A stretch of 37,613 nucleotides of DNA from the NCBI GenBank assembly GCA_003248125.1, contig QJXZ01000212.1, positions 1 through 37,613 on the forward strand, given 5' to 3'. Origin of the DNA: Gammaproteobacteria bacterium. Its GTDB lineage: Bacteria; Pseudomonadota; Gammaproteobacteria; Pseudomonadales; Azotimanducaceae. The notes beneath the pieces are model-generated. The model was not told where the DNA came from. It saw nothing but the letters and a program-made list of their open reading frames with translations, and did no database searches. The first letter of the stretch is position 1, and every line of letters starts with the position of its first letter. The position numbers and the translations under genes were made by a program. Shown one piece after another: positions 27,155 through 37,613 of this stretch.

Positions 27155-27802
27155 ATGACGATTCGGGTTCTGGTGGTAGACGATCACAGACTGGTGAGAC
27201 TCGCTCTGGCGCGCATGGTTGCCAAAGCATCGGGGATCGAGGTGGTCGGTGAAGCCGAATCCGGAGAGTCAGCAGTCGCACACTGTCGCACACTCGGCCC
27301 CGACGTAGTGCTTATGGACCTGCGCATGCCCGGCATCGGTGGCCTCGAGGCGACCCGTCGCATCATCAGACTCGAACTCGGAATCCGCGTGCTCGTGGTC
27401 TCGGCACTGGATGAAGAGCCATTCCCCGCCCAAGCGATGCGCGCCGGGGCCGCCGGATTCGTCACCAAGGGAGCATCCGCCGAGGATCTCGAGCGCGCGA
27501 TCCGTCGTGTTTTCGTCGGCCAGAAATTCATTTCCGAGCCGGTAGCACAACAGCTCGCCATGCGCGCGTTCGAACCCGAGATGGTCTCACCCTTCGACCA
27601 GCTTTCGAACCGCGAGATGCAGATCACGATGATGGTGGTCAACTGCCAGCGGGTGCAGCAAATCTCGCGAGACCTGCACTTGAGCCCGAAGACGGTGAAT
27701 AGTTACCGATACCGCATCTTCGAGAAGCTACACGTCGGCAGCGACGTGGAACTCGCACTGTTGGCGGTACGTCATGGCGTGGTCGACGTCAGACGCGCGT
27801 GA
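27155..27802 (+). CDS. uvrY: UvrY/GacA-family response regulator
   Basis: A 215-residue two-component regulator: a receiver domain with the acidic pocket at D9-D10 and phospho-accepting D55 in LMDLRMPGIGGLEATR, the lysine in FVTKGA, then a LuxR-type helix-turn-helix (ISRDLHLSPKTVNSYRYRIF). These segments correspond closely to E. coli UvrY, whose partner is BarA and which switches on small RNAs antagonising CsrA. The neighbour downstream is uvrC, as in E. coli and pseudomonads (gacA-uvrC). GGGGAG precedes the ATG. No BarA/GacS homologue is in the window; the HDOD-like kinase upstream is not of that type. Confidence 0.93.
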   Translation: MTIRVLVVDDHRLVRLALARMVAKASGIEVVGEAESGESAVAHCRTLGPDVVLMDLRMPGIGGLEATRRIIRLELGIRVLVVSALDEEPFPAQAMRAGAAGFVTKGASAEDLERAIRRVFVGQKFISEPVAQQLAMRAFEPEMVSPFDQLSNREMQITMMVVNCQRVQQISRDLHLSPKTVNSYRYRIFEKLHVGSDVELALLAVRHGVVDVRRA

Positions 27803-27853
27803 CGTTGGCTGCCGATACCCATCGATGCCATCGGGTACTGCTACCATGCCGCG

Positions 27854-29686
27854 ATGGAGCAGCGCGCGCACGAATTCGATGCTGAAGCCTTTCTTCGGGG
27901 CCTGACCACCCGCCCTGGCGTGTATCGCATGCTCGACGGCGATCGCACGCTCCTCTACGTCGGCAAGGCACGCAATCTCAAGAGCCGGGTGACGAGCTAC
28001 TTCCGCGCCTCGGGGTTGTCCGCAAAGACCATGGCTCTTGTCACTCGCATCGCGGACATCGAAGTCACGGTGACGGCGAGCGAAACCGAAGCGCTATTGC
28101 TCGAGCAGAGCCTCATCAAGGCACATCGACCGCCGTACAACATCGTGCTGAGGGACGACAAGTCGTATCCCTACATCCATCTCACCGACCACCAAGACTT
28201 TCCGCGACTGACGTTCCATCGCGGCGCGAAGCGCAAGACCGGTCGCTACTTCGGGCCCTTTCCCAGCGCGCACGCCGTGCGTGATAGCTTGAACATCCTG
28301 CAGAAGCTATTCCACATTCGACAGTGCGAAGACAGCTTTTTCAAGAACCGTTCCCGCCCATGCCTGCAACACCAAATCGATCGATGTTCTGCCCCCTGCG
28401 TGGGACTCATCGAACCCGGCGCCTATGCGGAGGACGTGCGGCACGCCGTGATGTTCCTGGAAGGACGCAACCAGGCGATCCTCGATGAATTCAAAGCGGC
28501 AATGGAAACGGCGTCGGCGCGGCTCGACTTTGAGCGCGCGGCACGGTTTCGCGACCAGATCGTGCACTTGCGTAAGGTTCAGGAACAGCAGTCGGTGCAC
28601 GCGGCATCAGGCGATGTGGACGCGTTCGCAGTCGCGCAAGCGTCTGGCGCCTCCTGCGTGCAGGGCTTGTTCGTGCGCGGCGGACGGCTACTCGGCCATC
28701 GCACTTGGTTTCCGAAGAACGAGCTTGCACTCGCCGAAGGCGAGTTGCTGGATGCCTTCCTCGCGCAGTACTACTTCGGTGGTATCGAGCGCGAAATACC
28801 GAAGTCGGTATTGGTGAACGCACCGATGTCGGGTCGAGATGTGCTGGCTGCAGCGCTTTCCGATCGTAGCGGGCGCAACGTCGAGGTTTCTCATTCCGTG
28901 CGTGGTCAACGTGCGCGCTGGGTCGAGATGGTGACCGAAAACGCGCTCCTCGGTCTGGATGCGTACCTCGCGGACAAACAAAACGTGCTGGCACGCTTCG
29001 TCGATTTGCAGGATTCGCTCGGGCTCGACGATCTACCATCGCGGCTCGAGTGCTTCGACATCAGCCATACCGGCGGTGAAGCGACCGTCGCGTCGTGTGT
29101 CGTGTTCGACGCCAGCGGACCGCTGAAATCCGACTATCGGCGCTTCAACATCGGCACCGCGGCAGCCGGTGACGACTACGGCGCGATGCGAGAGGCGCTG
29201 CGACGACGCTACGCGCGACTCAAGGCGGGGGAGGGTGTGCTCCCCGATATCCTGGTGATCGACGGTGGCGCCGGACAGATGAACGAAGCCGTTCGCGTAC
29301 TCGAAGATCTGCAGATCGAAGGCGTGACGGTGCTGGCGATCGCGAAGGGCGCGAGCCGCAAACCGGGCCTCGAAACCCTTCTGATGGCGGGACGGGGAGA
29401 GGTCGAGCTGGCCGCACAGGGCGCCGCGATGCATCTGCTCCAGCACATCCGCGACGAGGCCCATCGCTTTGCGATTACGGGGCATCGGCAGCGCCGCAGC
29501 CGCGCTCGGCAGGCGTCGGAGCTGGAAGGGATCGGTGGCATCGGGCCGAAGAAACGGCGCGAGCTGTTGCGCCATTTTGGCAGCATGGCGGGCATTCGGG
29601 GCGCGAGTCGCGACGAGATCGCCAAGGTGCCCGGCATCAGCCGCAAGCTCGCGGACGATATCTATGCAGCGCTACACGGCGACTGA
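27854..29686 (+). CDS. uvrC: Excinuclease ABC subunit C
   Basis: A 610-residue nuclease of nucleotide excision repair that makes both incisions around a lesion in complex with UvrB. The N-terminal GIY-YIG domain begins at about residue 17 (RPGVYRMLDGDRTLLYVGKARNL) and makes the 3' cut. A UVR motif lies near 205-240 for UvrB contact. The RNase H-like half, about 375-540, contains the conserved CFDISHTGG segment, the VIDGG stretch and the H-bearing DEAHRFAITGHR segment. Helix-hairpin-helix motifs close the protein (IGPKKRRELLRHFGS and IAKVPGISRKLADDI). The length equals the family norm. It follows uvrY by 51 bases. Confidence 0.97.
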   Translation: MEQRAHEFDAEAFLRGLTTRPGVYRMLDGDRTLLYVGKARNLKSRVTSYFRASGLSAKTMALVTRIADIEVTVTASETEALLLEQSLIKAHRPPYNIVLRDDKSYPYIHLTDHQDFPRLTFHRGAKRKTGRYFGPFPSAHAVRDSLNILQKLFHIRQCEDSFFKNRSRPCLQHQIDRCSAPCVGLIEPGAYAEDVRHAVMFLEGRNQAILDEFKAAMETASARLDFERAARFRDQIVHLRKVQEQQSVHAASGDVDAFAVAQASGASCVQGLFVRGGRLLGHRTWFPKNELALAEGELLDAFLAQYYFGGIEREIPKSVLVNAPMSGRDVLAAALSDRSGRNVEVSHSVRGQRARWVEMVTENALLGLDAYLADKQNVLARFVDLQDSLGLDDLPSRLECFDISHTGGEATVASCVVFDASGPLKSDYRRFNIGTAAAGDDYGAMREALRRRYARLKAGEGVLPDILVIDGGAGQMNEAVRVLEDLQIEGVTVLAIAKGASRKPGLETLLMAGRGEVELAAQGAAMHLLQHIRDEAHRFAITGHRQRRSRARQASELEGIGGIGPKKRRELLRHFGSMAGIRGASRDEIAKVPGISRKLADDIYAALHGD

Positions 29687-29728
29687 GCGCAGCCCGTACA
29701 ATACCCGCTTGCAAGCTCTGCTGATGCC

Positions 29729-30289
29729 ATGAATCTGCCGACGCTGCTGACGGTACTTCGCATCGCCATGATTCCGGTGTTCGTCGTGGTCTATCTCGTG
29801 CCCGGTCGATGGACGCAGATCACGGCCGCCGGGCTGTTCGCCGTGGCAGCCGCAACCGATTGGCTGGACGGATACTTGGCGCGCCGACTCGGTCAGACAA
29901 CGCGCTTCGGCGCATTCCTCGATCCAATCGCCGACAAGCTCATCGTGGTCACTGCGGTGGTACTGCTAACGGCAGACCATCGCAGCATCTACTTCACGTT
30001 ACCGGCGCTGGTGATCGTCGGTCGCGAACTCGTCATCACCGCGCTGCGCGAGTGGATGGCAGCCATGAACGCGCGTGGTCTCATTAAGGTTACACCTCTC
30101 GCCAAGTTCAAGACCGGCGTGCAAATCGCGGCGCTGATAGTGCTATTGGCATTCCCGCCGACGTCGGCGTTGCCCTTGGTCGTGCTCGGCTATGGTCTTC
30201 TGTATCTCGCCGCGGGCCTCACGCTGATCTCGATGATTTCGTACTTGCGAATGGCGTGGCCCGTGCTCCGCCGCGGACTCGAGCAGTGA
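29729..30289 (+). CDS. pgsA: CDP-diacylglycerol--glycerol-3-phosphate 3-phosphatidyltransferase
   Basis: A 186-residue inner-membrane enzyme that makes phosphatidylglycerol phosphate, the committed step toward phosphatidylglycerol and cardiolipin. The CDP-alcohol phosphatidyltransferase motif (D-G-x2-A-R-x8-G-x3-D-x3-D) is present from residue 49 (DWLDGYLARRLGQ through FGAFLDPIADK), with all three conserved aspartates. About four to six hydrophobic helices are seen, starting with the N-terminal MNLPTLLTVLRIAMIPVF. It lies 42 bases after uvrC; both the gene order and the tRNAs that follow match E. coli. Confidence 0.96.
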   Translation: MNLPTLLTVLRIAMIPVFVVVYLVPGRWTQITAAGLFAVAAATDWLDGYLARRLGQTTRFGAFLDPIADKLIVVTAVVLLTADHRSIYFTLPALVIVGRELVITALREWMAAMNARGLIKVTPLAKFKTGVQIAALIVLLAFPPTSALPLVVLGYGLLYLAAGLTLISMISYLRMAWPVLRRGLEQ

Positions 30290-30314
30290 TACAACGGCAC
30301 GACAGCGTCCTGTG

Positions 30315-30341
30315 TTGAGGTCACCGACGATCGAGTAGAAT
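30315..30341 (+). promoter_or_regulatory. Candidate stable-RNA promoter for the tRNA-Cys/tRNA-Leu pair
   Basis: TTGAGG at 30315-30320 and TAGAAT at 30336-30341 form a -35/-10 pair with 15 bases between, shorter than optimal. A GC-rich stretch (CCGCGCTCCC) lies between the -10 and the tRNA-Cys start at 30352, as in stringently controlled tRNA promoters. Confidence 0.4.
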
Positions 30342-30351
30342 CCGCGCTCCC

Positions 30352-30425
30352 GGCTGGGTGGCAGAGTGGTCATGCCCGCGACTGCAACTCGCGTTACATC
30401 GGTTCGATTCCGTTCCCAGCCTCCA
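30352..30425 (+). tRNA. tRNA-Cys (anticodon GCA)
   Basis: The seven-base acceptor stem GGCTGGG pairs fully with CCCAGCC. The anticodon stem CGCGA/TCGCG encloses the loop CTGCAAC with anticodon GCA, decoding UGC/UGU. The T arm contains GGTTCGATTCC. The discriminator is T and the CCA end is encoded. It sits after pgsA, as cysT does in E. coli. Confidence 0.97.
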
Positions 30426-30436
30426 ACACCGCACCC

Positions 30437-30523
30437 GCCCGGGTGGTGAAACTGGTAGACACAAGGGACTTAAAATCCCTCGACCGCAAGGTTGTGCGGG
30501 TTCGAGTCCCGCCCCGGGCACCA
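30437..30523 (+). tRNA. tRNA-Leu (anticodon TAA)
   Basis: A class II tRNA of 87 bases with acceptor stem GCCCGGG/CCCGGGC, D arm with GGTAGAC, and anticodon stem AGGGA/TCCCT around CTTAAAA (anticodon TAA). The long variable arm is CGACCGCAAGGTTGT-like, the T arm is GTTCGAGTCCC, and ACCA is encoded. It lies 11 bases after tRNA-Cys, equivalent to E. coli leuZ; the glyW gene that precedes cysT in E. coli is absent. Confidence 0.97.
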
Positions 30524-30672
30524 ATCGAAACGGCCAGTCAACTCATCTTTCCAGAATCGTACGGACTCTCGTCAACGCGCCGACGGTGAGTGTGCTCGGC
30601 AAATCGGCTTGCGGATTGGATGAAGGGGGCGGACATTGTGCTGACGGCCGAGGGGCGGCGGGCTCGCCGCGC

Positions 30673-30827
30673 GTGACCCTGGTTGGACAGGCTGGCGCGG
30701 CGGTGCAGGAGTGTCGCGGTTTGCTGGACCGGTGGGTCGCGCCTGATGCGCCGATCGAGCGGACCGAAGATGCACTGGCGAAGCGAGCGGGGAGGTGCTG
30801 CGCGAATTGAAGGCGAATCGTTGGTGA
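30673..30827 (+). pseudogene. Decayed gene tail with frameshift, upstream of the flavin oxidase
   Basis: From 30673 a frame with strong G/C third-position bias reads VTLVGQAGAAVQE and on to ALAKRAG. Near the four-G run at 30789-30792 the coding character moves to another frame that reads EVLRELKANRW and stops with TGA three bases before the next ATG. The joined tail looks like a normal gene end in an operon, so I read it as a frameshifted remnant. Upstream to about 30540 the sequence is GC-rich without a convincing start. The family is not recognised. Together with 30524-30672 this fills the gap after the tRNAs. Confidence 0.4.
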
Positions 30828-30829
30828 CA

Positions 30830-31960
30830 ATGAGCTACGACGTGATCGTTATCGGCCTTGGCGTCATGGGCGTGTCGGCGTGTCGCGCGCTAGCGAAGCG
30901 CGAGCTGCGGGTGCTGGGGTTGGAACAGTTCGAGCTGTGTCACGACCGTGGCAGTTCGCACGGGCGGTCGCGTGTGATTCGCAAGGCGTATTTCGAAGAC
31001 CCGCGGTACGTGCCGCTCTTGCATGCGACGTATGACCTGTGGCGCGAGCTGGAGACGGCATCGGCCGAGACGATCATTCACTATGCGGGCTGTTTGAATC
31101 TCGGCCCGGCGTACCATGAGTGCGTGCAGGGGGCGCGGCAGAGCGCGGAGGAGCATGGGCTTTCCTACGAAGCGCTGAGCGCCGCGGACGTGCGGGCGCG
31201 CTGGCCGGTGCTAGCGCCCAACGAATCGGACATCGGCATCTATGAGACGGACGCGGGCTTCGTCGTACCGGAGCGGTGCGTGCGTCTGCTGGCGGATGAT
31301 GCGATTCGCGCCGGGGCAACGATGCATGAGCGCGAACCGGTGCGAGGTTGGACCGCGGCAAACGCAAGCGCAACCGTAACGACGGACGCGGCGACCTACG
31401 AGTGCAAGCACGTTGTCATCACGCGCGGGGCCTGGCTGAGCGACGAGGCGATTGCGCGCCAGGGGAAAATCCCACTCACGGTCGAGCGCCAGGTGCAGCT
31501 CTGGTTTCGCCCGCCACGAATCGAGCGCTTTGGCATTGGTGGCGTGCCGAGCTTCGTACACTTTGTCGGGGATCGCGCCTACTACGGCATCCCGGCGTCG
31601 AGCGAGGGGTTGTTCAAGACGGCGCGGCATCACGGCGGCGAGGCGACCCATCCCGATCGGATTCGCCGCGTAGTAACCGATGCCGATGTCGCGGACGTGC
31701 GGGACTTTCTGAAGAAACACATTCCCGATGCTGACGGAGAGCCGGTCGCGTCCGAGGTGTGCATGTACACCAATACGCCGGACGACCACTTCGTGATCGA
31801 TCGGCATCCGGCGCATGAGAATGTCGTCATCGCCGGCGGCTTCTCGGGACACGGGTTCAAATTCGGGCCGGTCGTCGGTGAGATCGTGGCTGATCTGATT
31901 ACGAACAACCGCACGAATCACGCGATCGAGTTGTTTTCGCTGGGTCGGTTTGCGCGGTAG
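30830..31960 (+). CDS. Monomeric sarcosine oxidase / N-methyltryptophan oxidase-like flavoenzyme
   Basis: A 376-residue FAD-dependent amine oxidase of the MSOX/MTOX family, oxidising N-methyl amino acids to give formaldehyde, hydrogen peroxide and the free amino acid. The dinucleotide-binding motif is VIGLGVMGVSACRAL at residues 7-21. GSSHGRSRVIRKAYFED near 41-57 is the family's conserved segment. Cys311 in SEVCMYTNTPDDHFVID corresponds to the cysteine that carries covalent FAD in monomeric sarcosine oxidase. FSGHGFKFGPVVGE near the C-terminus is also diagnostic. The ATG at 30830 is preferred over a longer frame; a GTG two codons earlier is possible. Both neighbours in the apparent operon are broken. 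Confidence 0.88.
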   Translation: MSYDVIVIGLGVMGVSACRALAKRELRVLGLEQFELCHDRGSSHGRSRVIRKAYFEDPRYVPLLHATYDLWRELETASAETIIHYAGCLNLGPAYHECVQGARQSAEEHGLSYEALSAADVRARWPVLAPNESDIGIYETDAGFVVPERCVRLLADDAIRAGATMHEREPVRGWTAANASATVTTDAATYECKHVVITRGAWLSDEAIARQGKIPLTVERQVQLWFRPPRIERFGIGGVPSFVHFVGDRAYYGIPASSEGLFKTARHHGGEATHPDRIRRVVTDADVADVRDFLKKHIPDADGEPVASEVCMYTNTPDDHFVIDRHPAHENVVIAGGFSGHGFKFGPVVGEIVADLITNNRTNHAIELFSLGRFAR

Positions 31961-31961
31961 G

Positions 31962-32190
31962 AGGAACGAACTGGCGGCTTCCGCCGACGGCTATCTGAAG
32001 CAGATGCTGAAGACGGATGCGTTTCATCGCACGAAGATGGGCGGCCTGAATTTCGACCCAACGCGCGACGCGATCGAGGCGCTGGCGCTGACAACCAAGG
32101 AAGAGCTGCTCGCCGACCAGCGGGACCACCCACACCGCTACGATGAAGTGGTGCGTGCGGATGCGCGAGCCGAGTTTCCCCATCTGCTGA
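31962..32190 (+). pseudogene. N-terminal fragment of a phenylacetate-CoA-ligase-like adenylate-forming enzyme
   Basis: Directly after the flavin oxidase stop, with AGGAGG at the junction, a frame with strong coding bias reads QMLKTDAFHRTKMGGLNFDP and then LALTTKEELLADQRDHP. This pattern (short helical start, then a TTKxELxxDQxxHP block) is the N-terminal region of phenylacetate-CoA ligase-like enzymes, where an ATP-binding SGTTG loop should follow. Here, after about 70 residues near position 32190, the sequence turns into the antisense of an NfeD-like gene. No proper start codon is visible. It is thus truncated at least at its 3' end and cannot be functional. Confidence 0.5.
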
Positions 32191-32509
32191 CGCCGAGCGT
32201 CAGGCCGTCGCGCGACGTCACCTCGACGGTGTCACCTGTGCTCAGATCGTCGGCGCCACAGGCAAGCCAAATCTCACCGCGGAGCTGCACTTGCAGCTGA
32301 CCGTGGTCGTTGCTGACGACTCTACCGTGGGTACCGACGATCAAGTCCGGATCCATCGCCCGCGGCGTACGCATCATGCGCAGCGCCATGTAGTACACCG
32401 CGCCGGTGACGACGGCTATGACGCCGTAGATCTCGGCCGCGAGCGGCAACGGCAGCAGCCACCAGATGGGGAGTGCGATCAGAGGTAACACTAAGAGGAC
32501 GTGGCACAT
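32138..32509 (-). CDS. NfeD-like membrane protein, C-terminus possibly replaced
   Basis: A 123-residue protein with two hydrophobic helices (about 3-24 and 27-45) followed by an OB-fold-like beta domain (GTHGRVVSNDHGQLQVQLRGE, then LSTGDTVEVTSRDGLTLGV). This is the NfeD C-terminal domain, usually working with stomatin-like or ClpP-class membrane proteases. The natural NfeD end comes soon after LTLGV; the last 16 residues (SRWGNSARASARTTSS) are encoded by antisense of the adenylate-forming-enzyme fragment, so the end looks newly acquired at a deletion junction. No ribosome site is obvious, and no stomatin partner is adjacent. It may still be expressed. Confidence 0.55.
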   Translation of the reverse strand: MCHVLLVLPLIALPIWWLLPLPLAAEIYGVIAVVTGAVYYMALRMMRTPRAMDPDLIVGTHGRVVSNDHGQLQVQLRGEIWLACGADDLSTGDTVEVTSRDGLTLGVSRWGNSARASARTTSS

Positions 32510-32528
32510 CGCCAGCCGGTCAGCTTCG

Positions 32529-32714
32529 CTAGTTGTTCGGCTGATCCAGCCGCTGCTTCTCCTGCATGTGCTGAATCATCTGATTCATCATGCCTCACAT
32601 TGTCGCTATGCGTTGCCGCATATTCGGCATCGTATTCGTCTGCTGGCCGGTCGAACCGCCGCAGTGACCACCAGCCTTCATGTCACCCGATTGGCCGCCG
32701 ATCATGCCGTGCAT
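32529..32714 (-). pseudogene. Methionine-rich small protein gene interrupted by an in-frame TGA
   Basis: On the minus strand from an ATG at 32714 the frame reads MHGMIGGQSGDMKAGGHCGG and on to MRQRIATM, then TGA at 32595-32597. It then continues in the same frame with GMMNQMIQHMQEKQRLDQPN and ends at TAG (32529-32531). Both parts are rich in Met, Gln and His in the manner of small periplasmic metal-related proteins, so they look like one former gene with a nonsense change. No signal peptide is visible in frame upstream, so the 5' end is probably also lost. The stretch from 32715 to 32905 holds nothing recognisable. Confidence 0.45.
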
Positions 32715-32905
32715 CTTCTGCGCGACGATGGTTATCGATCGCCACGTATGGGTACCTCTTCTGTCGGTGATTTCACGGCTGCGCAATATCGAGTTGGAAC
32801 GCAGAGTGTTGCAATTGTTCCAAACGATCCCTTCTAGCAGATCGATCAAGCCGTCCCGCGGAACCGCGTGCGTGCCATTGAGCACGTCACGACATGTCGC
32901 GTCGT

Positions 32906-33391
32906 TCAGCGCCCGATCGAGTAGGTGCCCTCGAATCTGGCGATCGATTTGCCATCGTCGAACTCGGCGAGGTTCGTGGTCGTGCCGCTGCCTCGCAGCC
33001 CTGCCAATTGACCAACGCCGCCGAGGTTCTCCCACGTGACGGTGCCATCAGGGAGCAGTTCCAGCGCAATCCACCAGACGTCGCCACGCGCGCTTATGCC
33101 ATCACAAGATCCTCTGCCCCCGACCGGCTCATCATTCGCCGTGAACACGTACGTGGCGAAGCAGTCCTGGCTAGCTAGGTGAATCGGGTTACTAGGATCG
33201 TCAGTGACGACGGTCACGCTGAATCGCAGTCGCCGCACGACGTTGCCGTTGGCCAATGGAATCGCTTGCAGAACTTCTTGGGTGCCATTCACATATCCCG
33301 CTACCGGCTCGTCGGCCCTGACGCCACACGCAGCGGTGAGTAGGCAACCCATTAGGAGCCCACCCGTTGCCTTGGAATTGGAAACCAGCAC
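32906..33391 (-). CDS. Small exported protein of unknown function
   Basis: About 161 residues from a GTG at 33389-33391, chosen because a GGAGGGGG ribosome site lies about six bases upstream. The N-terminus is a signal peptide (GGLLMGCLLTAACGVRA). It could be cleaved after VRA by signal peptidase I or processed as a lipoprotein at one of two imperfect lipobox cysteines. The mature part is beta-rich, with two cysteines about 19 residues apart (QDCF and GSCDG). It ends in a Gly/Thr-rich region (GGVGQLAGLRGSGTTTN, then FEGTYSI) faintly like allene-oxide-cyclase-type barrels. The function is unknown. It is divergent from the TIR-domain receptor, 149 bases apart. Confidence 0.68.
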   Translation of the reverse strand: MLVSNSKATGGLLMGCLLTAACGVRADEPVAGYVNGTQEVLQAIPLANGNVVRRLRFSVTVVTDDPSNPIHLASQDCFATYVFTANDEPVGGRGSCDGISARGDVWWIALELLPDGTVTWENLGGVGQLAGLRGSGTTTNLAEFDDGKSIARFEGTYSIGR

Positions 33392-33493
33392 TTCCCCCTC
33401 CCATGAATTCAATGCGCGCCAAAGTATAGGCCCGAGGCTCCGGTGGGTGCGACCCCCGTGGCAGGCTGAGTTCGCCCACAGCGTGCCGTGATC

Positions 33494-33522
33494 TTGATGT
33501 TCGGGTTTCGTAGACTTACAGA
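33494..33522 (+). promoter_or_regulatory. Candidate promoter of the TIR-TolB-TPR gene
   Basis: TTGATG at 33494-33499 and TACAGA at 33517-33522 are separated by 17 bases; the -35 is good and the -10 weak. Transcription would begin about ten bases before the GGAGGGG ribosome site of the TIR gene. Confidence 0.3.
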
Positions 33523-33540
33523 TACGTACTGGAGGGGTAC

Positions 33541-35505
33541 GTGAGCATACCTTTCGCTGCCTACGCCGGTGACGAGCCTTATGTCTTCGTCTGCTATGCG
33601 CATGACGATTCGGCAGCTGTCTATTCGGAGATCGGACGGCTGCACGATGCGGGCATCAACGTCTGGTATGACGAAGGCATATCGCCTGGGCGCGAATGGA
33701 CTCAGGAACTCGCAGATGCCATCGATGGTGCGTCTCACGTTCTATTCTTCGTATCGCGCGCCTCAGCCGCCTCGCACAATTGCCGCAACGAGATTCAGTA
33801 CGCGTCGACGCGGGACAAACAGATTGTCGCGGTTCATCTCGAGCCCACGGAACTTCCGGGCGGATTGGAACTGTCGATCGGGCTCAAGCAGGCAATTCTC
33901 AAACACGAGATGACCGATGGCGACTTCCACCGAAAGTTGACCTCCGCGCTCGGTTTATCGGCTAGAGCAACTGACGTGCCGCACCTCGAGATGGAGAGAC
34001 GACTGCCACGCTGGCCCTGGGTACTGGGCGCCGGCGGCCTCATTGCTTCGGTGTTTGCGCTGTTGTGGCTGACAAGCGATGGCCAGGACCCAGTTCAACG
34101 GCCCACGATCGCAGTGCTACCGTTTGAAAATTTGAGCAACGACGTCGGGCAGGAGTATTTCAGCGACGGAATTGCGGAGGACATCCTGCAAGGGCTCGCG
34201 CGCAACCCGTCATTGGAAGTACGGGCTCGCACGTCATCGTTCTCCTTCAAGCGTAAGTTGCTCGACGCCGCCGACATCGCTGAGCAATTGCACGTTCGCT
34301 ACCTCGTCAACGGCAGTGTGCGCAAAGTTGGCAACGACGTGCGGGTCGTCGCTCGCCTAACGGATGCCGAGCGGCAAGTCGACATCTGGAACGACCGTTA
34401 TGACCGTACGTTGGCCGATGTGTTCGCGGTGATGGACGAGATCACGGCTTCGGTTCTCGATCGACTAAACGTGCACTTCGCTGCCGAGCCCAGGCGACAG
34501 CGCGATCCGCGTGCTTATGCGGCCTATCTGCAGGGCCGGTACCATCTGAATCGGCTGGAGCTGAGAGACGCAATCGTGGATCTCGAGCGGGCAGTGGACC
34601 TCGATCCAAGTAATGCTGATGCGTTCGCCGCGCTCGCGCAGATTTGGGCGACCTCTGACTACATGGGCCTCGCAAACTCGGAGGAACGTACGTTATCGCA
34701 GCGCTACGTCGACAAAGCGCTTGCGCTCGATGAGGATCACGCCAATGCCCGAGGCCTCGCGTCGAGCGGGTTGAGGGCGGGCGCGGCGATCGAGGAACTG
34801 GATCGACTCATCCGACAGTTTCCGAACGACCCAGAGATTTACTTCTACTACAGCGAGAGGTTACGCCAGATTGGACGAACCGACGTCGAGATCGCAGTGC
34901 TCGAACAGCGAACGATCATCGATCCCTTGTCGCCGCTCGCTTATCAACAGTTGGGATATGCACGACAGTTTTCCGGTGACTACGACGGGGCGCTAGTCGA
35001 GTACAAAAAAGCGGAGCGCCTTGGCTTGCCGGTGCCCCTGGACCTGTCGCTCGTTTGGCTGGCCGTAGGCGACCTGGCGGCACTGGAAGTGGAACTGGCG
35101 CGCCCGCTGTCGGATTGGAGAAGCAGTCTCTGGCGAGATTTGATGGCGGCGGAGGCATTTCGCGTCCGCGGCGACGTGGGTCGGATGGAGCAGGCAATCG
35201 CCGAGTTCGAGCCCTCTCTGTCGGCGTCGAGGTCGCTCGGGCCGTCAAACTTGGTGCGGTCATGGATAGCCATGTTGAGGGGTGACTTCGAACGAGCCGT
35301 TATGTATTACCGTTCCGCCCTCGTTCACGGTGAGGAAGCGGCGCTGGACGACATTCAAGGCTCGCGTGGCATGCGAGCACGTTATCCCGAGTTCTTCGCT
35401 GATCCTGGTTACGCCGCGATGCTAGACGAGTTCGGCTTGGACCCCGAGACGATCTCGACAATTACGGTTCCGCCGCTGCCGTTCACGACACCCGAGCGAC
35501 ATTGA
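33541..35505 (+). CDS. TIR domain / transmembrane / TolB-like / TPR protein
   Basis: A 654-residue membrane protein. Residues 13-130 form a TIR domain (YVFVCYAHDDS, then WYDEGISPGREW and SHNCRNEIQYA). E84 in the last segment is at the place of the catalytic glutamate of NAD-cleaving TIR domains. One helix at about 159-178 (PWVLGAGGLIASVFALLWLT) crosses the membrane. Residues 188-310 are a TolB-N/FlgO-like domain (PTIAVLPFENLS, DGIAEDILQGLARN, YLVNGSVRKVG), and from about 323 to 600 there are TPR-like helical repeats. The TM-TolB-TPR tail is known from proteins whose cytoplasmic head is an adenylate cyclase or CadC-like DNA-binding domain; here the head is TIR. GTG start with GGAGGGG upstream. 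No partner effector is in the same operon. Ligand and output are unknown. Confidence 0.88.
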   Translation: MSIPFAAYAGDEPYVFVCYAHDDSAAVYSEIGRLHDAGINVWYDEGISPGREWTQELADAIDGASHVLFFVSRASAASHNCRNEIQYASTRDKQIVAVHLEPTELPGGLELSIGLKQAILKHEMTDGDFHRKLTSALGLSARATDVPHLEMERRLPRWPWVLGAGGLIASVFALLWLTSDGQDPVQRPTIAVLPFENLSNDVGQEYFSDGIAEDILQGLARNPSLEVRARTSSFSFKRKLLDAADIAEQLHVRYLVNGSVRKVGNDVRVVARLTDAERQVDIWNDRYDRTLADVFAVMDEITASVLDRLNVHFAAEPRRQRDPRAYAAYLQGRYHLNRLELRDAIVDLERAVDLDPSNADAFAALAQIWATSDYMGLANSEERTLSQRYVDKALALDEDHANARGLASSGLRAGAAIEELDRLIRQFPNDPEIYFYYSERLRQIGRTDVEIAVLEQRTIIDPLSPLAYQQLGYARQFSGDYDGALVEYKKAERLGLPVPLDLSLVWLAVGDLAALEVELARPLSDWRSSLWRDLMAAEAFRVRGDVGRMEQAIAEFEPSLSASRSLGPSNLVRSWIAMLRGDFERAVMYYRSALVHGEEAALDDIQGSRGMRARYPEFFADPGYAAMLDEFGLDPETISTITVPPLPFTTPERH

Positions 35506-35590
35506 GAGATTCTCCTCTGGAATTTGCGCTTACGCTTCTGCCCTCGGCCGGGAGCCCGTGCCTCCGGCGCTGCGGTAACATAGAAGCCAT

Positions 35591-35676
35591 GCCCAGGTGT
35601 TGGAACTGGTAGACAGGCAGGATTTAGGTTCCTGTGTCCTCGTGACGTGTGGGTTCGAGTCCCACCCTGGGCACCA
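35591..35676 (+). tRNA. tRNA-Leu (anticodon TAG)
   Basis: A class II tRNA of 86 bases with acceptor stem GCCCAGG/CCTGGGC. The anticodon stem CAGGA/TCCTG surrounds TTTAGGT (anticodon TAG, decoding CUA-type codons). It has a long variable arm, the T arm GGTTCGAGTCCC and an encoded ACCA end. It stands alone and marks the change to lower-GC sequence downstream, as expected of a tRNA used as an integration site, though no integrase or second att copy is in the window. Confidence 0.96.
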
Positions 35677-36095
35677 AAAACGGACGACAGGGTCGCAGAC
35701 GCCCGGCCCGGACTACGCGGGCTTACTGGATCTGGTGAGCTAGAGCCTGAGGCTTCGCCTCGAAAAGTACCTTCAGGAGGAATATCCCACCCCAAAAACA
35801 TCGGCACACTGCCAACGTCTGCTCCGGGTCGACATTGGGATCGTAGATCGCTACGTCGAGAGCATGCTCGCACAAGGGTTGTGATAGCCGCCCAAGCTTC
35901 GTGTAGCTTCAGCTGCGCGCTCGCCTTCGCAAGCGTTCGCTGCAGCAAGGTGTTAACCGCACCCAGACGAGGACGCGGCTTTGAAAATGCGCCCATCAAT
36001 CCGACGAGGCAATGCTGGCAAGTTGCCATCATCTGGTGCGGTCCACTTTCGGTTAATCACGGACATGAGACATGCAACCGATCGTTAGTGAAAAC
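35677..36095. other. Spacer after tRNA-Leu(UAG), no confident gene
   Basis: This stretch of about 420 bases shows no gene I can support. A minus-strand frame starting near 36032 (MMATCQHCLVGLMGAF) is open but continues through the tRNA, has no ribosome site and matches no family. I searched by eye for a second copy of the tRNA 3' end as an att site and saw none here. Confidence 0.4.
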
Positions 36096-37097
36096 TCAAA
36101 CTTTCGCCTCGATTACAGAAAATCCTGACGGCAACGACACGACATCCGTCATGCACATGCCCGAATCCTCTAGCAGACGCGAGAAATCGTCCTCGCGACG
36201 AGCGCTACCGTTCGTAAATGCCAATACCAACAGGTCGTTCAGTGCTCCCATGAGCGATGATGACAACGTCTCCATGATTAGTAACCGACCTGCATCAGAA
36301 AGTGATGCCCTGCAGTTGCGGAGAATCCTGCACACGTCTTCGTCGGACCAATCCATTAACACGCGTTTCAAGATGATTGTGTCTGCGCGAAACGGAAGTG
36401 ATTCGAGCATGTTCACGTCAACCACCTGGCACCGGTCGAGGAGGTTCGCGGTTCCCAGTACTTGACGTGCCTCTTCGGCGACTGCCGGCAAATCGGCAAG
36501 CACGCCTCGCTTGTCGGGGTATTGGCTGAGAATCTCGCGCAAGAACGTACCATTGCCGCCTCCAACATCTGCGATGGTCTTTGCTGACGAGAAGTCGATA
36601 CGGTTCAATACGCGGAGTTCTCTACGTGTTGCAGCCGCCAGGGCTGAATTTAGGATTGCTGCATCGTCGGGGTGTTCGGTCATGTATCCGTAAAAGTCAT
36701 CCATGCACGGGTAGCCGGTTCGTATGCATTCCGTCAGCCGACCAACACCATCACGACTCCAATCACTCGCATCCATTACAACAAAATCTCGGACGGAATC
36801 GGGAACGCCACTGCGCAGGACCTCAGATATCTCGGACTGGCTGAAGCACAACGGTTCAACCTCTTCAAATACCCCTACGATTGCAAGGCACCGCAGCAGT
36901 CGCAAGAGCGATACGCGGTCTGCACCAGTCTCCTCTGCGAGAACATCGACGGTCCGTGGACCGTCCGCGAGGTAATCCGCCAGATTCAGTTGTACAGCCA
37001 CCATGATCGCGTTCGATATGAGGCGAGCACGAGTCAATCCGATTACGACATCCGCCGCTGTATCCCCTTCGAAAAGTGAGTCAACATTTGCTCTCAT
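36096..37097 (-). CDS. O-methyltransferase-family protein with altered catalytic residue
   Basis: A 333-residue protein of the plant-type/CrtF-like O-methyltransferase family: a winged-helix dimerisation domain (about 20-100) and a Rossmann SAM-binding domain. The SAM loop is IADVGGGNG at about 175-183, and LADLPAV near 200-206 is the usual second motif. The catalytic region reads LKRVLMDWSDEDV: where family enzymes have His-Asp-Trp, position 248 is Met (codon at 36354-36356). Without the general-base histidine it may not be an ordinary O-methyltransferase; related proteins that hydroxylate or decarboxylate are known. GC content and codon use are lower than in the rest of the window, suggesting transfer. 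Start ATG has only a weak ribosome site. Confidence 0.82.
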   Translation of the reverse strand: MRANVDSLFEGDTAADVVIGLTRARLISNAIMVAVQLNLADYLADGPRTVDVLAEETGADRVSLLRLLRCLAIVGVFEEVEPLCFSQSEISEVLRSGVPDSVRDFVVMDASDWSRDGVGRLTECIRTGYPCMDDFYGYMTEHPDDAAILNSALAAATRRELRVLNRIDFSSAKTIADVGGGNGTFLREILSQYPDKRGVLADLPAVAEEARQVLGTANLLDRCQVVDVNMLESLPFRADTIILKRVLMDWSDEDVCRILRNCRASLSDAGRLLIMETLSSSLMGALNDLLVLAFTNGSARREDDFSRLLEDSGMCMTDVVSLPSGFSVIEAKV

Positions 37098-37333
37098 GTT
37101 GCATCCGCCAGGTTGTTTGTGAGTTTTGACATTAAACGGCCGCTTTCTTTGCAGAGTGCTCGATAACAGATGTGCTGGTTAGAGGTGAGGCAATCTCAGT
37201 TTCCTTGCTAACGACCGAATTCGGGTTGGGACAGACATTGGTCCGTGTTGCGCGTTGGACGTCCGGTTTTGGCCATTAGCTGCCCTTCGTCCTATCGAAT
37301 AATATCCCCATTGGCTTCATCGGGAGGGCGACG

Positions 37334-37613
37334 ATGGTTGATTGGGAAGCGATCGGGGCTATTGGCGAGCTAGTCTCGGCAGTGGCTGTCGTCTCTACGC
37401 TGATCTACCTGGGAAGACAACTTCACTCGACGGCGAAACAACAGAAACTGGAAGGTCATCGTTCCATCAGCGAGGAGTTCAATCGAATCAACGAAGTTTG
37501 GCTAGACATAGAAAAATCAGGAATGTTGATCCGGGCGTGGTCAAATTGGGAGACCGCGACAGCTCAAGAACAGCCCCTCGCCTGGGTGTTCTTCACAAAG
37601 GTGTTAAACCATC
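37334..37613 (+). CDS. Small membrane-anchored protein of unknown function (5' part)
   Basis: The frame starts with ATG after GGGAGG and runs off the window after 93 codons. Residues 6-27 form one hydrophobic helix (IGAIGELVSAVAVVSTLIYL), followed by a polar helical region (GRQLHSTAKQQKLEGHRSIS, then EEFNRINEVW). This N-terminal helix plus helical cytoplasmic part resembles an uncharacterised family common in marine bacteria; no function is known. It is divergent from the methyltransferase gene, with 236 bases between, and shares its lower GC content. Confidence 0.75.
   Translation, partial: MVDWEAIGAIGELVSAVAVVSTLIYLGRQLHSTAKQQKLEGHRSISEEFNRINEVWLDIEKSGMLIRAWSNWETATAQEQPLAWVFFTKVLNH

Follow-up and report, generated by a model that had tools for sequence, protein, structure and literature searches.

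Layout of the locus

The window, by which the whole stretch of 37,613 nucleotides under analysis is meant, is contig 26 of a 4.24 Mb genome assembly that consists of 383 contigs and carries 4.55% contamination. Positions 30830..31960 of its plus strand are occupied by an intact gene for an FAD-dependent amine oxidase of the N-methyl-L-tryptophan oxidase / monomeric sarcosine oxidase type, whose product matches the N-methyl-L-tryptophan oxidase model NF008425 with E 2.7e-123 over profile positions 2-376 of 377, and covers the Pfam model DAO from end to end (1-353 of 353). Directly after the oxidase stop codon (31958-31960) a coding-like stretch starts on the same strand. Its first part, 54 codons at 31971..32132 with the matched portion at 31995-32132, is coding-like in frame and seems to be the stump of a PaaK-type adenylate-forming ligase gene. 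The stretch meets, 3′ end against 3′ end, a minus-strand open reading frame of 123 amino acids at 32138..32509 for a short NfeD-like, probable membrane protein, with its stop codon at 32138-32140, and frame-wise coding scores follow the plus phase to about 32190 and the minus phase from there to 32509.

Within the NfeD-like frame, two predicted helices (residues 3-18 and 21-46; 32372..32503, minus strand), hydrophobic by eye and placed by a single-sequence structural model, form the N-terminus and may be a membrane anchor, and an essentially complete NfeD OB-type domain follows at residues 55-107 (32189..32347, minus strand). What lies between this domain and the ligase stump, at 32133..32188, is a breakpoint interval of uncertain origin, which is coding-like in the ligase frame of the plus strand, has no ligase homology, and encodes on its minus strand residues 108-123 of the NfeD frame plus the stop. 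The C-terminal tail made of these residues (32141..32188, minus strand) is therefore either native to NfeD or the antisense of plus-strand coding DNA.

A Shine-Dalgarno-like aggagg, so named by its resemblance to the consensus, overlaps the oxidase stop at 31959..31964 of the plus strand, and an in-frame CTG (31971-31973) sits 6 bases behind it; of the listed in-frame starts the nearest, a TTG at 31950, still falls within the terminal part of the oxidase gene.

Further upstream, at 27155-30523, open frames read by eye as uvrY-like, uvrC and pgsA are followed by tRNA-Cys and tRNA-Leu, with the oxidase gene coming after them; uvrY-uvrC-pgsA-tRNA is also the gene order of E. coli. From tRNA-Leu to the oxidase gene (30524-30830) there is no consistently coding-like frame, and the open frame at 30358-30810 has no Pfam match; this region is perhaps decayed. 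The region upstream of the NfeD frame (32510-32880) also has no consistently coding-like frame, and a Met-rich minus-strand stretch there, interrupted by an in-frame stop, matches nothing in plasmids or Pfam. Beyond it, 33541-35505 encodes a protein with an N-terminal TIR domain and TPR repeats, and a tRNA-Leu (tag) precedes the contig end at 35591-37613, where GC drops to 0.51-0.55 past about 36000 and an O-methyltransferase gene lies on the minus strand (36096-37097). The tetranucleotides of 34313-37613 stand at the 94th percentile of 47 chunks of the genome, and this end could be an island at the tRNA.

Identity of the plus-strand fragment

The likeness to ligases resides in residues 12-57 of the plus-strand frame at window:31962-32198 (i.e., 31995-32132). 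An 8-residue pattern scanned through the genome_contigs collection returned 292 stretches, three of which encode a relative of the fragment, and all three relatives are PaaK-type ligases of planctomycete assemblies, with 41-45% identity from residue 12-15 to residue 57. Since these three were found using the fragment itself, a more independent profile test was made, in which 139 genomes of the planctomycete phylum were searched with the C-terminal part of one of the ligases (L018). Forty-three of the genomes matched, and the profile was built from the N-termini of 27 of the 30 loci fetched, L083, L085 and L090 being dropped as genes found by the fragment itself; the query, too, comes from a fragment-found gene, and it is only the collected N-termini that are independent of the fragment. 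Of the window's 702 open frames, the fragment scores best against this 27-member profile (22.9 bits, E 3.7e-6); none of 5000 shuffles reaches its score, the best attaining 12.4 bits. A profile drawn more broadly, from 29 class-level ligases, gives a much weaker match (11.1 bits, E 0.012), which two of 5000 shuffles exceed, and pairwise tblastn of the fragment against the 29 class-level ligase loci gives no match at E 0.1. No Pfam model matches the fragment, and in NCBIfam only RNase Y-type models do, at the chance level of E 0.11-0.26.

The initial annotation had taken the fragment for an N-terminal piece of an adenylate-forming enzyme, and the profile result upholds this: the fragment is likely, though not certain, to be the N-terminal part of a PaaK-type (phenylacetate-CoA-ligase-like) enzyme. 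That it is a piece of something else, such as RNase Y, seems improbable. Hits of the fragment in six genomes comprise three ligases (one of them the L018 gene), one match judged to be chance (L081) and two proteins that we take by eye, without comparison to a library, to be RNase Y (L080 and L082). The latter two match residues 30-74/75 at 54% and 50% identity, thus reaching beyond the end of the ligase homology. This match, however, depends on a gap of three residues and has the lower score (16.4 and 14.1 bits, as against 17.6-20.8 bits in comparisons with four single ligases). In NCBIfam it does not rise above chance (E 0.11), and it offers no account of the first 29 residues of the fragment.

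If the fragment is what the ligases suggest, very little of the enzyme is left. Both full relatives that were scanned have an AMP-binding and an AMP-binding_C_2 domain, and both are matched by phenylacetate-CoA ligase PaaK models. In L018, a protein of 428 residues, the AMP-binding match begins at residue 96, whereas the piece kept in the window corresponds to a stretch ending at about residue 77; the stump therefore cannot be an enzyme. Both the AMP-binding core, from the TSGTTG motif onward, and AMP-binding_C_2 are absent from the fragment, as judged by Pfam. Compared with the PaaK-type family (L018, L027/L057, L078 and L079), with which it shares the N-terminal block 'TTKEELLADQ..HP', most closely so in L018-L020, the window keeps about 54 residues out of about 430-480, and nothing of the AMP-binding domain. 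The stump may also be without its first ~20 residues, for only 17 residues separate its CTG (31971) from the F of 'DAFH', compared to 35-42 in the relatives L018, L057, L058 and L079 when counted from start codons chosen by eye. A frameshift after residue 57 was considered and rejected, as the other two plus frames show, by eye, no ligase-like continuation.

The NfeD-like gene and the position of the join

On the other side of the junction, the NfeD domain is essentially complete and the gene not clearly broken. Pfam NfeD (PF01957) matches with E 7.9e-11 and 42.4 bits, against a cut-off of 29.1, over positions 2-55 of 57, and the solved NfeD homologues PDB 2exd (E 0.0012) and 3wwv (E 0.0095) align to residue 109. 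Past the aligned part, 11 of 14 fetched NfeD relatives carry 1-18 unconserved residues (of the other three loci, L009 and L014 stop inside the aligned range, and L006 has no tblastn match), all these relatives being about 27-41% identical and thus too distant to tell whether they show the shorter, unextended end. The single-sequence model, of moderate confidence (mean pLDDT 69, pTM 0.36), gives the two helices, five strands to residue 110 and a further strand at 113-120; the corresponding domain is described, in the part of PMC11222466 that deals with it, as a five-stranded, OB-fold-like barrel. The initial annotation had seen here two broken genes joined head-on, each deprived of its 3′ part. 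The ligase gene is indeed clearly broken and the 3′ ends do meet, but the loss of the NfeD 3′ part does not agree with a domain that is complete in Pfam and in the structural alignments, nor with relatives whose additional residues are few. What NfeD may have lost is at most the stop codon together with a few unconserved residues at its very end, and it would presumably still be functional. The two solved homologues are short NfeD proteins, of the kind that partners stomatin in an operon, and resemble the window protein in the OB-type domain; the latter has, in addition, helices at its N-terminus and continues for another 14 residues. Of the seven open frames scanned with Pfam, none was recognised as a stomatin or flotillin gene.

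The position at which the two genes were joined depends on which evidence is followed. The codon of the last residue in common with ligases finishes at 32132, and the NfeD stop codon follows 5 bases on; the ligase alignments end at residue 57-60 (32132-32141), and the residues after the match fit the ligase columns no better than chance would allow (1779 of 5000 shuffles are as good). A codon model trained on 105 open frames of this genome (45,832 codons) leads elsewhere. Read in the ligase frame, 32133-32189 scores 0.28 per codon, which is higher than 66% of 525 coding windows; 2.1% of 525 antisense windows reach this value. The NfeD tail scores -0.26 per codon, and values this low occur in 0.95% of 105 gene tails and in 34% of 525 antisense windows. 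The codon change-point from plus to minus is best placed at 32189-32191 (95% range about 32166-32207), and the fit worsens by 8.4 natural-log units if the strand switch is forced to 32140, just past the NfeD stop. About 57 bases hence separate the end of homology from the codon switch. The breakpoint could lie anywhere within about 32133-32190, the codon answer being 32190 and the homology answer 32133-32137, and the 16 to 19 codons involved are too few to decide.

The two placements of the join are weighed here against each other, on odds separate from those of the best explanation of the junction as a whole. A join at about 32133-32137 comes close to an even chance. It would leave NfeD wholly native, its tail and its stop at 32138-32140 included, and it takes the end of the ligase homology at face value, the plus frame reading HRYDEVVRADARAEFPHLL from there on; the 11 relatives, too, have unconserved residues past the aligned part. 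What it has to set aside is the codon statistics, with a tail as low as the lowest 0.95% of gene tails. A join at about 32190 is a somewhat more doubtful candidate, in which the plus strand would be coding to 32188, and NfeD would have lost its stop and last few residues, to end in 16 residues from the opposite strand of the stump. The change-point and the cost of moving it speak for this placement, as does the NfeD tail (RWGNSARASARTTSS), which scores antisense-like, and so does the end of the NfeD domain match at 32189. Its difficulty lies in the residues past the ligase match, which carry no ligase signal where the relatives have a conserved P[YF]G...TSGT stretch. Besides, unconserved gene tails can be compositionally odd, and the NfeD stop is only 5 bases from the end of the ligase homology. 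This last proximity allows a native NfeD end, and with a native stop at 32138-32140 NfeD would be intact.

The last 14-16 residues of NfeD are thus possibly its own and possibly acquired from the antisense of the stump. The switch near 32190 that had initially been read from the sequence is borne out by the codon change-point and at odds with the homology, which ends at 32132 and gives way to shuffle-like residues. Similarly, the derivation of the last 16 NfeD residues from the enzyme fragment agrees with codon statistics and finds no echo in homology, so that a new C-terminus is possible and nothing firmer. The stronger version, namely that a working short NfeD swapped its natural end for about 16 residues encoded on the strand opposite a dead ligase gene, in a recent birth of a C-terminus from antisense coding DNA, we regard as unlikely.

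Origin of the junction

An ordinary pseudogene stump, i.e., a truncated PaaK-type ligase gene lying against a convergent and essentially complete NfeD gene, is probably what the window holds. A PaaK-type adenylate-forming ligase gene would once have stood behind the oxidase gene, and the anatomy of the locus makes a deletion or illegitimate recombination the likeliest cause of its truncation. Such an event would have removed all but about 54 ligase codons, including the whole AMP-binding domain, and would at the same time have set the convergent short NfeD gene, essentially complete, against the cut. The fragment and the 701-base junction region occur in one copy each in the genome. With the remainder of the L018 ligase as query, no loose close ligase remainder was detected in the own assembly: there are 11 matches at E <= 10, the best with 31% identity and E 1.1e-10 in a 564-residue open frame, and since all 11 lie in long open frames (467-1235 residues) none looks like a loose remainder. 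A ligase fragment with no AMP-binding domain and no close remainder in its genome is probably a dead stump.

The initial annotation ascribed the junction to a deletion or rearrangement of two convergent genes, which stands as a fair reading of a truncated ligase next to a convergent NfeD, although the parental arrangement occurs in none of the genomes sampled. It had also pointed to relatives with an intact ligase behind the oxidase gene, and such relatives did not turn up: an oxidase-like frame accompanies the ligase in none of the 74 fetched ligase loci (about 61 different ligase genes, the rest being repeats or not ligases), and a ligase-like frame is found in none of the 13 loci of oxidase relatives, with flanks of mostly 1.5 kb in both sets. 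A conserved oxidase-ligase operon is therefore set aside, the pair being present in no locus sampled, and the parental order is unproven. Nor do the oxidase relatives reveal it, as only 14 of 206 genomes of the family, the own one included, pass E 1e-60, and the other 13 are at 35-43% identity. In single-sequence searches, the fragment itself appears only in its own genome among 97 relatives and among 398 genomes of the phylum, two sets that overlap; 43 pattern stretches in viral contigs contain none of its relatives, and plasmids gave no match to it. The DNA of 31950-33480, compared with the 206 family genomes, finds besides its own only matches of 31-39 bases in five genomes. Two of these lie within the stump (L023 and L024), where tblastn of the fragment gives a best E of 0.56 for the former and nothing for the latter, whose DNA was read by eye.

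The join could also be the work of the assembler or of binning, two unrelated pieces having been put together, which we consider hardly likely. The assembly is fragmented and contaminated to the degree given above, and the right flank (32220-37520) differs from the left by 0.266 in tetranucleotide composition, more than 12 of 13 adjacent pairs in the genome. Part of this difference, however, comes from the low-GC end: 32220-35520 stands at the 83rd percentile of the 47 chunks, within the range of the genome, as against the 94th for 34313-37613. The junction region has no second copy, and the 13-base inverted repeat ending at 32189 is of a kind that chance provides (28 of 60 shuffles have one). 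The frequency of such repeats in shuffles, together with the contiguity of the NfeD N-terminus with its domain, also led us to reject a repeat-mediated inversion at this point.

Most likely, then, the junction is what commonplace loss of chromosomal DNA leaves behind in a bacterium and does not represent a gene of a new kind; gene stumps of this sort are common. Its practical importance is for annotation, as a gene caller could report a plus-strand frame of 116 aa (31950-32300) composed partly of ligase stump and partly of antisense NfeD, along with an NfeD of 123 aa that has a perhaps acquired tail. If the tail was truly acquired, the locus offers a small example of the birth of a C-terminus; otherwise, it is routine genome decay.

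Two known phenomena come close to what is seen here. Liu et al. 2004 (PMC522871) put the background level of candidate pseudogenes at 1-5% for most prokaryotes and regard a large fraction of these as failed transfers. The truncated pseudogenes described there resemble the stump in being a homologous piece of a gene between intact genes with the rest gone, whereas here a convergent gene lies with its 3′ end directly against the stump, and the cut may have altered that end as well. The other is C-terminal extension via stop codon loss in yeast and fly, which Andreatta et al. 2015 (PMC4494051) describe, with extensions still polymorphic and with one putative fusion that proved to be an assembly error. 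If NfeD did gain a new tail, it would belong to this class, with the difference that none of the relatives sampled here is both close and unextended and that the added DNA would come from the strand opposite a broken gene.
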